A DNA stretch of 40,163 nucleotides from Pseudomonadota bacterium (GTDB taxonomy: Bacteria; Pseudomonadota; Alphaproteobacteria; Rhizobiales; Xanthobacteraceae): assembly GCA_021815055.1 (NCBI GenBank), contig JAKAHJ010000003.1:1-40163 (forward strand), written 5' to 3'. The stretch's first letter is position 1; every line of letters starts with the position of its first letter. Below, piece by piece: positions 2,585-37,767 of this stretch. The translations under genes were made by a program, and so were the position numbers. The notes below the pieces were generated by a model that was not told the DNA's origin, made no database searches, and saw only the letters and a program-made list of their open reading frames with translations.

Positions 2585-3094
2585 TCAGACTAGGGTTGGT
2601 TCCCATGGAGGCTCAACGACCAACTCTAAATTAAAGATTCTAAACTCTTTCTTCACAAACTCAATAAGCTCGCGAAAGTTTGCAGGGCTGCCATTCAACG
2701 GGATGGCAATAGGAAGGTTGCCGCCGCGGCGGAGGTGATTTTCCGCATATTGAAGGTTTAGGTCGAAAGGGTGGTAATGGCTGCCCGAAATGATCCTGTT
2801 TTGCCAAACAACCGGCCCTCGTCCTTTGTTGTTGTGGGTACTAATTGGGCGCCATTCGACTCTGGCAAGCGGACCACCTGGCTCGGCCGCAGGATGATAT
2901 TCTACCTGCATCGTCACAAGTTCGTCCGGCAACCGCTTCTTTGCCGTCGCCCGGAACTGGAGCCCCTCGATGACGACGCCGTCGATATCGAGCGGGCAGA
3001 CAACCTCCAATGCCGCCGAATCCCGCTCCACCCATTGCGGCTGCACCGCTAGGGCCTTCTGTGCATTAAACAGGGTCTCGAGGTTAATTGCCAT
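2585..3094 (-). CDS. Hypothetical protein, upstream partner of the 1818-2576 gene
   Basis: 169-aa ORF with a plausible globular sequence, same strand, end overlaps/abuts the next gene start; AT-richer than surroundings. Confidence 0.6.
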   Translation of the reverse strand: MAINLETLFNAQKALAVQPQWVERDSAALEVVCPLDIDGVVIEGLQFRATAKKRLPDELVTMQVEYHPAAEPGGPLARVEWRPISTHNNKGRGPVVWQNRIISGSHYHPFDLNLQYAENHLRRGGNLPIAIPLNGSPANFRELIEFVKKEFRIFNLELVVEPPWEPTLV

Positions 3095-3345
3095 CCGGTC
3101 CGCCAGCCCAAGGTAGACTCAAGCTGGCACCACCAAATATTGCAATCGAAAACGGATGCTTGTCTCACGGGGGATGCTCGCGAAAACTTATCCCCGGTCT
3201 CCGGACAGAGCTTATATTCCTCGCGTCTCGTCCGGCTGCGCCCGTCATCTCGAGTGGCGGTCGGCGGCAGGACGAGGCCGGCGCGCCGACAATGCGCGCC
3301 GAAGCAGGCAAGCCGACGCACATCTTGCGCAAGCTTGTCTGCGGT

Positions 3346-3522
3346 GGAGCGCCGGGAGGCGCAGCGCCTCGGGCGGCAGGCCTCGCAAACCTGCCGCATG
3401 CGGCGCGCGCGCCACTGGATGCGGGTCTCGCAAGCCTGCTTCCGTTCCGGCGCGCGGGCGGCCCGATCGCAAGGGCCGCCCCAAGGGGGCCTCGCAAGCC
3501 CTCTGGCGCCTCCCGGCGCTCC
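3346..3522. repeat. Multi-hairpin structured element closed by a perfect 17-bp inverted repeat
   Basis: ggagcgccgggaggcgc (3346-3362) / gcgcctcccggcgctcc (3506-3522); internal perfect stems 3373-3380/3390-3397 (8 bp) and 3456-3464/3473-3481 (9 bp), plus 3484-3490/3498-3504; loops contain TCGCAA. Confidence 0.75.
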
Positions 3523-3686
3523 ATTCCCTTCGGGGAAAGGAAAAAGGGACACCGGCCTACCCGGGGCCGTCAACAATACGGGCGCTGATGCTTGTCCGCG
3601 TAACGTGGCCTTTCAAAAAGCCTCGCTTTATCCGTAGTTTAATTGAGGTAGACTGAAGTTCCAGGAAGTCTGGACAGCGCGCACTC

Positions 3687-4802
3687 ATGGCGACCGAAAC
3701 ACTACAAACGATCACGCGGCTGACGCCGCTTGCCGATGTGCTGGCGCTGGTCTCCGCGCAGGTGACGCCGGTCGCGCCGCGCAGACTCTCGATCGGTGCG
3801 GCAGCCGGACGCGTGCTCGCCGCCGACGCGATGGCCGCGACGCTGCCGGAACACGCAATCGCCTTGCAGGACGGCTGGGCCCTGGCCGCCGACTTGACGC
3901 TCGGCGCCGGCTCCTATGCGCCGGCGCTTTTGCGGGACATTCCGGCGCGAATCGAAGCGGGTCAGGCGATGCCCGCCGGCACCGACAGCGTCGCGCCCTT
4001 CGATGCGATCCAAGTGACGCAAGGCCGAGCGGAAGCGGTGCAGCCTGTCAATCCGGGCGATGGTGTCTTGCCGGCCGGCGCCGACACGGATGCAGCCGTT
4101 CCGCTGCGGCGCGCGGGCGAGCGCCTGCGGCTCACCGATTGCGCCGCGTTGGCGGCGGCAGGACTTGCGGATGTCGCGGTGCGCGAGCCGCATATTATCG
4201 TCGCGCCGCTGCGCAATGACGGCATTGTCGATGCCGCGGCCCGGCTGATCGCGGTCGATATTGCGCGGGCTGGCGGACTTGCGCAGGTCGCGGATCGCGG
4301 CACGGGATTGACCGAAGCGCTGACCGCGCAAACCGCCGACGCCGTCATCGCCGTCGGCGGCACCGGTAACGGCCGCAACGACGATTCCGTTCACGTGCTG
4401 GCGCGCGAAGGCAGGCTCGCGCTGCACGGCATGGCGCTGACGCCGGGCGAGACCGCCGCGTTCGGCTTTGCCGGCGCAAGGCCCGTGCTGCTGCTGCCGG
4501 GGCGGCTGGATGCCGCCTTGTGCGTCTGGCTCACGGTTGGGCGGCCGATGCTACGGCGGCTCGCGGGAGCAGACGAAGAGCGTGAGCCGGCCGAGACCGT
4601 ACCGCTCGCGCGCAAGATTACCTCCACGGTCGGGCTGACCGAACTCGTGCCGGTGCGGGTGCAAGGCGGGCAGGCGGAGCCGCTGGCCGGCAAATATCTG
4701 CCGCTGTCGGCGCTCGCCCGTTCCAGCGGCTGGGTGCTGGTTCCGGCCGGGAGCGAGGGCTATTCCGCCGGCTCGACGGTTCAGGTAAGGCCGTGGCCAT
4801 GA
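3687..4802 (+). CDS. Divergent MoeA-like molybdopterin-binding protein
   Basis: MoeA-like layout (LTPLADVLALV..., LQDGWALAADLT, VGGTGNGRNDDS) directly upstream of and overlapping a MoeA gene. Confidence 0.75.
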   Translation: MATETLQTITRLTPLADVLALVSAQVTPVAPRRLSIGAAAGRVLAADAMAATLPEHAIALQDGWALAADLTLGAGSYAPALLRDIPARIEAGQAMPAGTDSVAPFDAIQVTQGRAEAVQPVNPGDGVLPAGADTDAAVPLRRAGERLRLTDCAALAAAGLADVAVREPHIIVAPLRNDGIVDAAARLIAVDIARAGGLAQVADRGTGLTEALTAQTADAVIAVGGTGNGRNDDSVHVLAREGRLALHGMALTPGETAAFGFAGARPVLLLPGRLDAALCVWLTVGRPMLRRLAGADEEREPAETVPLARKITSTVGLTELVPVRVQGGQAEPLAGKYLPLSALARSSGWVLVPAGSEGYSAGSTVQVRPWP

Positions 4803-6799
4803 CCGACGCCTTTAGGGCAAAGCCGGACCTTGCGGCCGAACTGATCGCACGCGTGCGCGCCGCCGCGCGGCAGGAACAGTTCCTCGAAGTGGTGTCCGCG
4901 GAGGTGGCGCGCGCGCGCTTTGCCGCGCATCTCGACCTCGCGCCGCTCGGCCCGGAGACCGTGTCGCTTGGCGAAGCGCTCGGGCGCGTCTTGGCGCATG
5001 ATGTACTGGCGCCGGTCGACGCACCGCCCTTCGACCGTTCCAATGTCGACGGCTTTGCGCTGCGCGCCGCCGATACGCTCGGCGCGAGCGACGGCCATCC
5101 GAAAATCCTCACGCTCAATGCCGAAGTCATCGCCTGCGGTCATGCGCCGCGGCTCACGGTCGCACCAGGCACGGCGACATCGATTGCGACCGGCGGCGTG
5201 ATCCCGCGCGGCGCCGACGCCGTCGTGATGATCGAGCACACCGAATTGCTCGAAGACGGCGCCCCGCGCATCGAATTACGCCGCGCGACCGCGCCCGGAC
5301 AGTTCGTCTCCTATGCCGGCTCCGACATCGCGCGGGGCGAAACCCTGCTGCGGCGCGGCGCGCGCATCGGCTCGCGCGAAATCGGCATGCTCGCCGCCTG
5401 CGGGCTCGCGCAGATCGACGTGGTGCGCCGTCCCAAAGTGGCGGTGATCTCGACCGGCGATGAGCTGATCGCGCTTGGCGCGCCACTTGAGCCGGCGAGG
5501 GTCTATGACAGCAATGGCGCGATCATCGCCGCGGCGATCGCAGAAGCCGGCGGCGAGCCGGTGCCGATGGGCGCGTTTCCCGACGACGAGGCCAAGCTGG
5601 AAAAAGCGGTGCGTGAGGCGCTCGCCATCTGCGACATGGTCGTGCTCTCGGGCGGCACGTCTAAAGGTGCGGGCGATCTTTCGCACACCATTGTCTCGCG
5701 TCTCGGCAAGCCCGGCATCCTGGTGCACGGCGTCGCGCTCAAGCCTGGCAAGCCGCTCTGTCTCGGCGTGGCGGAGGGCAAGCCGATCGCGGTGCTGCCG
5801 GGCTTTCCGACCTCCGCGATCTTCACCTTCCACGCCTTCGTTGCACCGGTGATCCGCGCGCACGCGGGGCTGCCGCCGGAAAGTGCCGAAACCATCGGCG
5901 CGCGCGTGCCGGTGCGAATCTCCTCGGAGCTCGGCCGCGAGGAATTCGTGCTGGTGTCGCTGATCGATACCGCCGAAGGGCCGGTCGCTTTTCCGATCGG
6001 CAAAGGCTCCGGGGCGGTGATGAGTTTCTCGCAGGCCGACGGCTTCCTCGCCATCGATGCGCTCGCCTCCGCGCTCGATGCCGGCAGCGACGCGCAAGTG
6101 ACGCTGATCGGCAGCGCCGCGCAGGCGCCCGATCTCGTCATCATGGGCAGCCACGATGTGGCGCTCGACGTGGTGGTGGGCGCGCTATCCGAACGCGGCT
6201 TCTCCGCGCGCGTGCTCGCCGTCGGCAGCCTCGGCGGCGTGGCGGCCGCAAGCCGCGGCGAATGCGATGTCGCGCCGGTGCATCTGATCGACCCGGTGAG
6301 CGGCCAATACAACGTGCATCTCGTCGCGCCCGGACTCACTCTGGTGCCCGGCTGGCGGCGCATGCAGGGCGTGCTGTTCCGCCCCGGCGACAAGCGCTTC
6401 GAGGGCCGCAGCGGGCAAGGGGCGCTACAAGAGGCATTGCAGGCCGCGCTCGCCGATCCATCCGCACTGATGGTCAATCGCAATGCCGGCTCGGGCACCC
6501 GCGTGCTGGTCGACAGGCTGCTCGGTGGCGCGCGGCCGCCCGGCTACGCCAACCAGCCGAAGTCGCACAACGCGGTCGCAGCCGCAATCGCGCAAAGCCG
6601 CGCCGACTGGGGCCTAGCCATCGAGCCGGTCGCGGCGATGTACGGCCTCGGTTTCCTGGCCGTCGCGCCGGAGCATTACGATTTTCTAGTCGTGGAGAGC
6701 CGGCGCGCGCGGCCGGCCGTGCAGGCCTTTTTGGCGGCCCTGCGCGATGAGAATGTACGCGCGCGCATCCGCGCCATCGGCATGCAGCCGGCGGAGTGA
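4799..6799 (+). CDS. moeA: Molybdopterin molybdotransferase MoeA fused to a C-terminal periplasmic-binding-protein-like domain
   Basis: MoeA motifs FDRSNVDGFALRAADT, STGDEL, LSGGTSKGAGDLS; C-terminal ~220 aa (MGSHDVALDVVVGAL...VNRNAGSGTRVLVDRLLG...KSHNAVAAAI) is PBP-like. ATG 4799 overlaps upstream TGA (ATGA). Confidence 0.85.
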   Translation: MTDAFRAKPDLAAELIARVRAAARQEQFLEVVSAEVARARFAAHLDLAPLGPETVSLGEALGRVLAHDVLAPVDAPPFDRSNVDGFALRAADTLGASDGHPKILTLNAEVIACGHAPRLTVAPGTATSIATGGVIPRGADAVVMIEHTELLEDGAPRIELRRATAPGQFVSYAGSDIARGETLLRRGARIGSREIGMLAACGLAQIDVVRRPKVAVISTGDELIALGAPLEPARVYDSNGAIIAAAIAEAGGEPVPMGAFPDDEAKLEKAVREALAICDMVVLSGGTSKGAGDLSHTIVSRLGKPGILVHGVALKPGKPLCLGVAEGKPIAVLPGFPTSAIFTFHAFVAPVIRAHAGLPPESAETIGARVPVRISSELGREEFVLVSLIDTAEGPVAFPIGKGSGAVMSFSQADGFLAIDALASALDAGSDAQVTLIGSAAQAPDLVIMGSHDVALDVVVGALSERGFSARVLAVGSLGGVAAASRGECDVAPVHLIDPVSGQYNVHLVAPGLTLVPGWRRMQGVLFRPGDKRFEGRSGQGALQEALQAALADPSALMVNRNAGSGTRVLVDRLLGGARPPGYANQPKSHNAVAAAIAQSRADWGLAIEPVAAMYGLGFLAVAPEHYDFLVVESRRARPAVQAFLAALRDENVRARIRAIGMQPAE

Positions 6800-6831: not shown

Positions 6832-6938
6832 TGTCATTCCGGGGCACGCGCGAAGCGCGGGAGCCCGGAATCCAGAACCTTGCGCGGGATTGCATCTGGA
6901 TTCCGGGTTCCGGCCTACGGCCGGCCCCGGAATGACAG
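6832..6938. repeat. Palindromic intergenic repeat (GTCATTCCGGGGC...GCCCCGGAATGACA)
   Basis: Terminal inverted repeats tgtcattccgggg / ccccggaatgaca between convergent moeA and atpC. Confidence 0.8.
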
Positions 6939-7383: not shown

Positions 7384-7492
7384 CCTCATCCTGAGGAGGC
7401 CGCGGCACGCGGCCATCTCGAAGGATGAGGCCGTGGACTTCGCACCTCACCCTTCGAGACGCCGGCCTGCGGCCGGCTCCTCAGGGTGAGGT
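7384..7492. repeat. Two adjacent CATCCTGAGGAG/CTCGAAGGATGAGG-type palindromic repeats
   Basis: 7384-7430 ctcatcctgaggaggccgcgg...ccatctcgaaggatgag and 7443-7492 cacctcacccttcgagacgccgg...ccggctcctcagggtgaggtg, between atpD and atpC. Confidence 0.8.
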
Positions 7493-8958: not shown

Positions 8959-9855
8959 TCAAAGCGCCTCGGCGCCGGAAATGATCTCGATCAGTTCCTT
9001 CGTGATCATGGCCTGGCGCGTGCGGTTATAGGTGAGCGTTTGCTTGCGGATCATCTCGCCGGCATTGCGGGTGGCGTTGTCCATCGCGCTCATGCGCGCG
9101 CCCTGTTCGGACGCCGCGTTTTCCAAAAGCGCGCGGAACACCTGCACCGACAGGTTGCGCGGCAGCAGCTCGGCGAGGATCTCCTCCTCCTCCGGTTCGT
9201 ATTCGTAAGACCCCCTCCCTAACCCTCCCCCGCTTGCGGGGGAGGGATGGGAGGGGGACTCGAACACCGGCGGAATGATCTGCTGCGCGGTCGGGATTTG
9301 CGCGATGACCGATTTGAAGCGCGAGAAGAATAGCGTGCAGACGTCGAACGCGCCTTGCTCGAACAGCGCGACGATCTTCTTGGCGATCATGTCGGCGTGC
9401 TCGAAACCGATCTGCTTGACGCCGCGCAGTTCGACGGTCTCGATGATCAGCTTGCCGTAGAGCCGGCGCAATTGCTCGGCGCCCTTGCGGCCGACGCAGA
9501 GGATTTTCACCTCCTTGCCTTCCGCCGTCAGCGCATTCGCCTTTTCGCGCGCGAGCCGCACGATCGAGGAATTGAACGGCCCGCACAAGCCGCGCTCGGC
9601 GGTGCAGACCACCAGGAGATGAACCTTGTCGCCGCCCGTGCCGGCGAGCAGCTTCGGGGCCGCGTCGCTGCCGGCCACCGCCGCGGCGATCGAGCCCAGC
9701 ACCTTTCCCATGCGCTCGGCATAGGGACGCGCGGCCTCCGCCGCCGCCTGCGCGCGCCGCAGCTTGGAGGCCGCGACCATCTGCATGGCCTTGGTGATCT
9801 TCTGCGTCGCCTTGGTGGCGGCGATGCGAACGCGCATGTCCTTGAGGGAGGCCAT
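8959..9855 (-). CDS. atpG: F1F0 ATP synthase subunit gamma (with in-frame repeat insertion)
   Basis: [36 protein letters not shown]...C-terminal [19 protein letters not shown]. Confidence 0.97.
9211..9257. repeat. Palindromic element inside the atpG coding sequence
   Basis: Nested perfect stems ccccctccc (9211-9219)/gggaggggg (9249-9257) and ccctcccccgc (9223-9233)/gcgggggaggg (9236-9246). Confidence 0.9.
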
Positions 9856-17380: not shown

Positions 17381-17511
17381 ATCCCTCCCCCGCTTGCGGG
17401 GGAGGGTGGACGCGAGCGCGAGCGAGCGAGCGGCCGGGTGGGGGATTCAATTAAAACCCCACCCGTCTCCGCGCTTCGCGCGGAGCCACCCTCCCCTTTC
17501 AGGGGAGGGAT
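17381..17511. repeat. Composite CCCTCCCCCGC...GGGGAGGG repeat element
   Basis: ccctcccccgcttgcgggggaggg at one end, ccctcccctttcaggggaggg at the other, with gtgggg/ccccac and ccgcgcttcgcgcgg inside. Confidence 0.85.
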
Positions 17512-18964: not shown

Positions 18965-19064
18965 CCTCATGGTGAGGAGCCGCGCGCAGCGCGGCGTCTC
19001 GAACCATGGGGCCGCCCCATCCTTCGAGACGCCCGCCTTCGGCGGGCTCCTCAGGATGAGGCGG
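18965..19064. repeat. Tandem CATCCTGAGGAG-family palindromic repeats
   Basis: ctcatggtgaggagccgcgcgcagcgcggcgtctcgaaccatgggg and catccttcgagacgcccgccttcggcgggctcctcaggatgagg. Confidence 0.8.
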
Positions 19065-30550: not shown

Positions 30551-30557
30551 GCATGAT

Positions 30558-30669
30558 GTCATTCCGGGGCGCGCCGAAGGCGCGAGCCCGGAATGCAGAG
30601 CCGAGTGCGCGACGCTTGTGATTCCTGGATTCCGGGCTCGCTCGCGTTCCGCGAGCGTCCCGGAATGAC
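30558..30669. repeat. GTCATTCCGGGGC...CCCGGAATGAC intergenic repeat
   Basis: Terminal inverted repeats between convergent GNAT and thpR. Confidence 0.8.
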
Positions 30670-37416: not shown

Positions 37417-37599
37417 GCGGCGCCTCCTTTTTGCATTTCTGTCATAAGGAATGATTGCGCCGCCGGCCGTCCGCTGCAAGCCTTCCTTGGGTGCGCTGCG
37501 GGACTAAAAACGAGGCAAAAACGGCCGAAACCCGCGCTGCGCGATCACGAACTCGTTAATTGCCCACACAATAACGCCTAATTTCGGTCAATCGCCCGA

Positions 37600-37767
37600 C
37601 ATGCTACAGCGCGAAAAGGTCAGCGTTGCCTCATGGCCCGGTCCGGTTCGATCTCCGGATTCCTCAGCCCCCCAGCCCCCCGGGGGTCAGCCGACCGGGC
37701 CAGTTGAGTTCCGCGTACGGTTCAATCCCCTAAACCTTCGGGCCGGTTTTCACCGGCCCGTTTTTTT
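37600..37767 (+). ncRNA. Candidate orphan structured small RNA ending in an intrinsic terminator
   Basis: Perfect 10-bp stem tggcccggtc (37634-37643)/gaccgggcca (37693-37702) upstream of a strong terminator, with no plus-strand CDS upstream; 5' end unknown. Confidence 0.45.
37739..37767 (+). terminator. Intrinsic terminator
   Basis: CGGGCCGG-ttttca-CCGGCCCG followed by T7. Confidence 0.92.

Follow-up and report, generated by a model that had tools for sequence, protein, structure and literature searches.

The window considered here (the whole analysed stretch of 40,163 nucleotides from a pseudomonadotan genome) contains, at 3346-3522, an inverted repeat enclosing a series of hairpins, and this locus raises the question of whether such a structure is a dispersed DNA repeat, part of an mRNA, or an RNA gene in its own right. 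On comparative sequence evidence, we regard it as probably one copy, with a predicted plus-strand RNA spanning ~3224-3600, of a multicopy, putatively self-associating, structured noncoding RNA (ncRNA) gene family, for which a multivalent scaffold or titrator role is tentatively proposed.

The perfect 17-bp inverted repeat described in the original prediction is present (3346-3362 / 3506-3522) and extends to 19 bp (3344-3524) when one T-A and one G.U pair are counted. It encloses four arms, all of which carry the proposed shared TCGCAA in their apical loops, and the TTCG-loop hairpin reported immediately downstream is found as well. The plus-strand fold of 3344-3524 reaches -145.2 kcal/mol, whereas shuffled sequences average -111.1 (z -6.6; none of 200 is as stable), and the minus-strand fold of the same region is nearly equal (z -6.3); since both strands fold about equally well, the strand required a separate test. 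The word CTCGCAA is not enriched across the window (8 found, 10.2 expected) and is special there by its loop position only, not by its frequency. The copy scores 77.2 bits with covariance model R1 and 76 bits with covariance model R2, and neither of the two ORFs scanned over the region (3165-3524 minus and 3088-3588 plus) has a Pfam match. The unit is larger than first recognised, with a promoter-like stretch, three 5′ hairpins together spanning 3225-3342, and 3′ hairpins followed by a tail to ~3595 (Table 1).

Table 1. Parts of the family copy in the window, in order of position.
Feature	Position	Strand	Basis and remarks
P2 promoter-like stretch CTTATCCCC-N-TTATATTC	3187..3219	+	-10-like TTATAT at 3212-3217
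5′ hairpin A, self-complementary loop CTCGAG (3249-3254)	3225..3278	+	fold; predicted kissing-loop dimerisation hairpin
5′ hairpin B, GACAA-type loop (GGCGCGCCGACAATGCGCGCC)	3279..3301	+	fold
5′ hairpin C (GCAGGCAAGC / GCTTGTCTGC)	3304..3342	+	fold; not general in the family
Cloverleaf core	3344..3524	+	near-invariant closing stem GGAGCGCCGGGAGGCGC / GCGCCTCCCGGCGCTCC, four arms; folds, covariance models
Arm 1, loop CCTCGCAAA	3364..3406	+	fold
Arm 2, loop TCTCGCAAG	3407..3455	+	fold
Arm 3, loop GATCGCAA	3456..3481	+	fold
Arm 4, loop CTCGCAA	3484..3504	+	fold
3′ hairpin D, UUCG loop	3524..3537	+	hairpin at the same place in most copies
Purine-rich linker GGAAAAAGGGA	3538..3549	+	seen again in many copies, several genera
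3′ hairpin E (CGGCC..GGGCCG)	3553..3569	+	conserved in own-genome copies
Conserved tail CAACAATACGGGCGCTGATGCTTGTCC	3570..3600	+	approximate 3′ boundary of the unit

Across the family, the cloverleaf has four arms in 58 of 67 representatives and two, three, or five in the remainder. Its closing stem is near-constant (sampling was seeded from exact stem matches, and copies with changed stems are under-represented), whereas the arm stems are hypervariable but still paired. In a 79-row alignment, which was fitted to the model, leans toward structure, and includes five antisense rows, each of the 31 arm pairs shows changes in both strands of the stem; the covariation score is 0.52, compared with 0.045-0.098 for slid partners, and 96.7% of cells are paired. 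Of 258 apical loops, 111 contain UCGCAA, where 0.5 would be expected; none of the 67 representatives has TCGC[AC]A on its antisense strand, and 13 of the 67 cloverleafs lack TCGC[AC]A altogether. For the strand itself, copies were given an orientation from their tail and loop words, independently of G.U pairs, and folded with G.U forbidden; among the resulting 1x1 mismatches on the plus strand, G.T outnumbers A.C by 68 to 22, and 34 elements favour G.T against five with the opposite preference (p 2e-6). G.U pairs thus exceed A.C mismatches on one strand only, which indicates that selection acts on the RNA and is the pattern expected when the plus-strand RNA is the molecule selected. The earlier suggestion of selection on the loop sequence is supported by the UCGCAA enrichment and the G.U bias together, for the RNA of one strand.

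These observations bear directly on the view that the element is a REP/BIME-like intergenic DNA or 3′-UTR element, lacking its own gene, that is perfected by template switching at inverted repeats. Copies are indeed nearly always intergenic, dispersed, and hairpin-rich, and B. japonicum has repeats of this type, Br-REP1 and Br-REP2 (PMC5082802); however, template switching predicts pairing that is fully Watson-Crick and shows no bias between strands, in conflict with the one-sided G.U excess, and the constant loop sequence, the family's own promoters, and an orientation unrelated to neighbours also argue against it. This reading is already disfavoured, and we consider it improbable.

The window copy's transcription start is predicted at ~3224, the CGACAAC/T loop of hairpin B is found again in other copies, and a longer class of copies has an extra structured 5′ domain. 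In the genome from which the window derives (2.5 Mb, ~69% complete), similarity between copies fades just past ..GATGCTTGC; there, near-identical RNA bodies stand behind differing promoters, and the homogenised unit starts at the predicted transcription start and ends near GATGCTTGC. No intrinsic terminator was recognised in family copies, and a GCTGTTTGA..TGAATC tail was discarded as a general feature, being present in only 18 of 115 copies.

Approximately three quarters of the copies have a recognisable promoter, with 28 of 103 having none by the patterns used. The arrangement P1 (TTGAC-N15-19-TANNNT, often with TCCTA words) lies upstream of 37 of 103 copies, compared with none downstream and one antisense, and P2 lies upstream of 16 of 103 copies, with none in downstream flanks and none antisense. 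P2 has four matches in the window's own genome, of which three precede family copies and the fourth precedes a copy that breaks off after its 5′ domain; 25 relatives have no match. A palindromic operator TAGGANTATANTCCTA considered for P1 was rejected, as the exact word has no match in 20 genomes and only the TCCTA words remain. In one copy (L315; G000:C91, promoter 6887-6919, minus strand), the promoter and 5′ domain give way directly to unrelated sequence. A third class of promoter-like stretch, found in the MAG G224 (7.7 Mb, 9% contamination), joins a TTGAC box to a second box, either GTTC-N7-GTTC or GAAC-N7-GAAC. This second, LexA-type box is present in all 26 analysed G224 copies and in no downstream flank (background 0.016 per 260 bp), an identical box type precedes lexA and ssb of G224, and the box fits the published Caulobacter LexA consensus, of TGTTC-N6-TGTTC type (PMC13384398). 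By their promoter box, the copies of that MAG would be genes of the SOS (LexA) regulon; the window copy has no LexA-type box. Three near-identical LexA-boxed G224 copies (L359, L364, and L370) belong to the class with the long 5′ domain, and their closing stem is a variant, GGAGCGCCGCAAGGCGC.

A protein-coding reading was rejected: cloverleaf lengths show no preference among the three reading frames (24/22/21), which are also disrupted by indels. The same features weigh against a type I toxin-like mRNA, in which a structured 5′ UTR would precede a small stress-induced peptide. Multiple copies, RNA structure, and in some cases SOS induction are traits of type I toxin genes, a profile that the LexA-type boxes of G224 would suit; nevertheless, no conserved peptide was noticed among copies in addition to the frame evidence, and we judge this explanation very improbable. 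The original prediction had also mentioned spurious MERREAP ORFs in Bradyrhizobium-type genomes. Such an ORF does recur (antisense ATGGAGCGCCGGGAGGCGCC, in 62 of 115 copies); in the large-genome genus g41 (probably Bradyrhizobium), the R2 core was found in none of three genomes tested. If the gene-family reading is correct, it also accounts for many spurious hypothetical proteins of the MERREAP type.

How far the family extends was assessed at several levels. Blastn revealed further copies sharing the closing stem in the window's own genome, and covariance model R1 recovered nine full-length copies there together with shorter two-arm forms. Such short forms, 85-95 nt long, are represented by L198, L200, L147, and L168 and by copies in G054 and G057, with ~8-11 matches per genome in the latter two. 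An exact match to the 17-base stem is present in 89 of 300 genomes and 22 of 47 genera of the same family (probably GTDB Xanthobacteraceae), while the reversed control gave stray single matches. R2 recovered the core from 21 of 52 family genomes, representing 20 of 45 genera, and from no genome among ~117 belonging to other families of the order, the larger R2 searches applying stricter filters under which weak matches can drop out. The idea of a dispersed family is thereby supported, both within the window's own genome and across genera. An initial search of named genomes for the 17-mer gave chance matches in many unrelated GC-rich genomes, and for this reason only matches with a second arm and a fold were kept; the carriers named in this way are Afipia, Rhodoplanes, Pseudorhodoplanes, and further Xanthobacteraceae, and it is these names that point to GTDB Xanthobacteraceae as the family.

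With respect to existing annotation, Rfam 15 at its gathering threshold yields only BjrC174 in the window, located elsewhere than the element; no relevant sub-threshold match by E-value was obtained in the element region, and none of 20 family loci has a match. Searches of the open literature gave nothing relevant on the stem sequence, the MERREAP word, the promoter words, multicopy LexA RNAs, or Rhodopseudomonas repeats. By the measure of Rfam 15 and the open literature, this family of stand-alone RNA genes is previously undescribed.

The dispersal of copies also gives rise to the main rival explanation, namely a selfish, non-autonomous mobile element that spreads as RNA or as its DNA and relies on a transposase or reverse transcriptase acting in trans, with structure and stress promoter serving its spread. 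In G224, where stem matches number up to 34 plus 33, ~30 dispersed copies are 90-98% identical across 210-330 bp with unrelated flanks; the window copy is missing from the same place in 29 relatives; the homogenised part in the window's own genome matches the predicted transcript; and LexA control is common among mobile elements. On the other hand, inspection by eye showed no target-site duplication or associated enzyme, several copies occupy orthologous positions across species or genera, as stable genes do, and none was found in phages or plasmids by blastn, with none of 53 viral contigs containing the 17-mer having a cloverleaf. Moreover, promoters differ between near-identical copies, so that the unit does not move with its promoter. 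Orientation relative to neighbours is unbiased (29/25/24/15), and one of 93 copies lies inside an ORF. At the window copy itself, no clean empty site was found: from 3609 onward the sequence is again homologous to the region upstream of moeA in relatives, but the neighbours on the upstream side are not the same. (Downstream lie two tandem MoeA-type genes, at 3687-4802 and 4793-6799, the second encoding MoeA fused to a further domain.) We regard the selfish reading as unlikely, though a serious competitor; the plain mobile hairpin repeat of the original prediction is not upheld, most copies having their own promoter-like stretch and a conserved 5′ and 3′ RNA architecture. Separately, ~180 bp of unrelated DNA interrupts one G224 cloverleaf (L362, 1608-1908).

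The gene-family reading gains a further dimension from the first hairpin. A palindromic hexamer occupies 37 of 60 non-redundant first-hairpin loops, against a shuffled mean of 6.7 and maximum of 17 in tests that ignore relatedness, copies of one genome not being independent, and against only 9 of 57 later 5′-region loops (difference p 5e-7). Twelve different palindromes are represented (TCATGA, TCTAGA, CTCGAG, ACCGGT, CGATCG, and seven others), although some first hairpins are near-perfect palindromes whose loops are then palindromic automatically, and copies share ancestry. The loop sequence changes while its self-complementarity stays, and the plain reading of such a pattern is intermolecular pairing. 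Dimerisation through a kissing interaction of the 5′ loop is thus somewhat favoured by the sequences; RNA dimers of this general kind have been reviewed (PMC7357161). Against the model stands a G224 subfamily, S1, which has a different first hairpin with a non-palindromic loop and few UCGCAA loops.

Taken as a whole, the evidence makes it very probable that the elements constitute a family of structured, transcribed ncRNAs, although the copies with no promoter by the patterns used, the cloverleafs lacking the loop word, and the failure to recognise an intrinsic terminator count against the model. In the proposed mechanism, the gene's own regulated promoter would yield an RNA of 300-450 nt, released as a pulse under stress, which would be DNA damage for LexA-controlled copies; two RNA molecules would pair through their self-complementary first-hairpin loops, each would then display several UCGCAA loops on its cloverleaf, and the dimer would offer ~4-10 identical loop sites. 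With that many identical sites, the RNA would most likely serve a single RNA-binding partner as a multivalent scaffold or titrator, although that the function is a multivalent UCGCAA platform can be proposed only tentatively. More speculative still is a new class of bacterial RNA genes with no known counterpart, amplified to dozens of copies, stress-controlled (by LexA in one lineage and by other regulated-looking promoters elsewhere), and multimerising by self-complementary loops into a damage-induced UCGCAA-array scaffold. If the gene-family reading is correct, a structured RNA gene, multicopy and so far without annotation, is present in many genera of one family of soil and water bacteria, RNA genes probably form a large share of the SOS regulon in one lineage, and an RNA that conserves self-pairing, not sequence, joins the few families suspected of acting as RNA multimers. 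Cultured hosts exist among Afipia and Rhodoplanes relatives.

The window contains several other features of note. The BjrC174 match, to a known abundant Bradyrhizobiaceae sRNA, lies at 37544-37764 on the plus strand (68.7 bits). A GC-rich palindrome (ACCCTCCCCCGCTTGCGGGGGAGGGAT) at 9222-9248 lies in frame within ORF 8959-9855 (minus strand), which looks like the gene for the ATP synthase gamma chain and gains 13 protein letters from it, and its inverted twin is located at 17381-17407. Ordinary REP-type hairpin repeats are present at 6895-6937 and 30557-30599, as well as at 7445-7491 and 19015-19061; these are of the kinds TGTCATTCCGGGG.. and CTTCGAGACGCC.., the first resembling Br-REP2.

Among known systems, the Br-REPs of B. 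japonicum are likewise dispersed intergenic hairpin repeats, Br-REP1 having three stem-loops; they are described in 3′ UTRs without promoters of their own, whereas in the present family the arms covary, the loops are constant, and copies have promoter-like stretches of their own, and neither Br-REP consensus, CCGGAATCTCGAGATTCCGG or CGAGATTCCGGG..CCCCGGAATGA, was seen in the element when compared by eye with the published description (PMC5082802). The retroviral dimerisation initiation site offers a parallel in that self-complementarity of a hairpin loop outweighs its sequence, but the likeness is one of analogy, between a bacterial gene family and retroviral dimers to which it has no relation. 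CsrB/CsrC-type titrating sRNAs display one loop word on many hairpins; here, however, the dominant word is UCGCAA and not a repeated GGA, the arms are gathered in one closed cloverleaf, and nothing points to CsrA, contrary to the CsrA-sponge-like logic initially suggested. Also comparable are GOLLD, ROOL, and OLE, large ornate bacterial ncRNAs of mostly unknown function that form homo-oligomers partly through kissing loops (PMC12286853). The present family resembles them in its elaborate fold, its oligomerisation being predicted from the palindromic 5′ loop; the Rfam models of the three give no match at the gathering threshold in the window or the 20 family loci, and there is no sequence relation. 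It differs from them in that blastn did not find it in phage and plasmid collections, in its shorter length of 300-450 nt, and in its many dispersed chromosomal copies.
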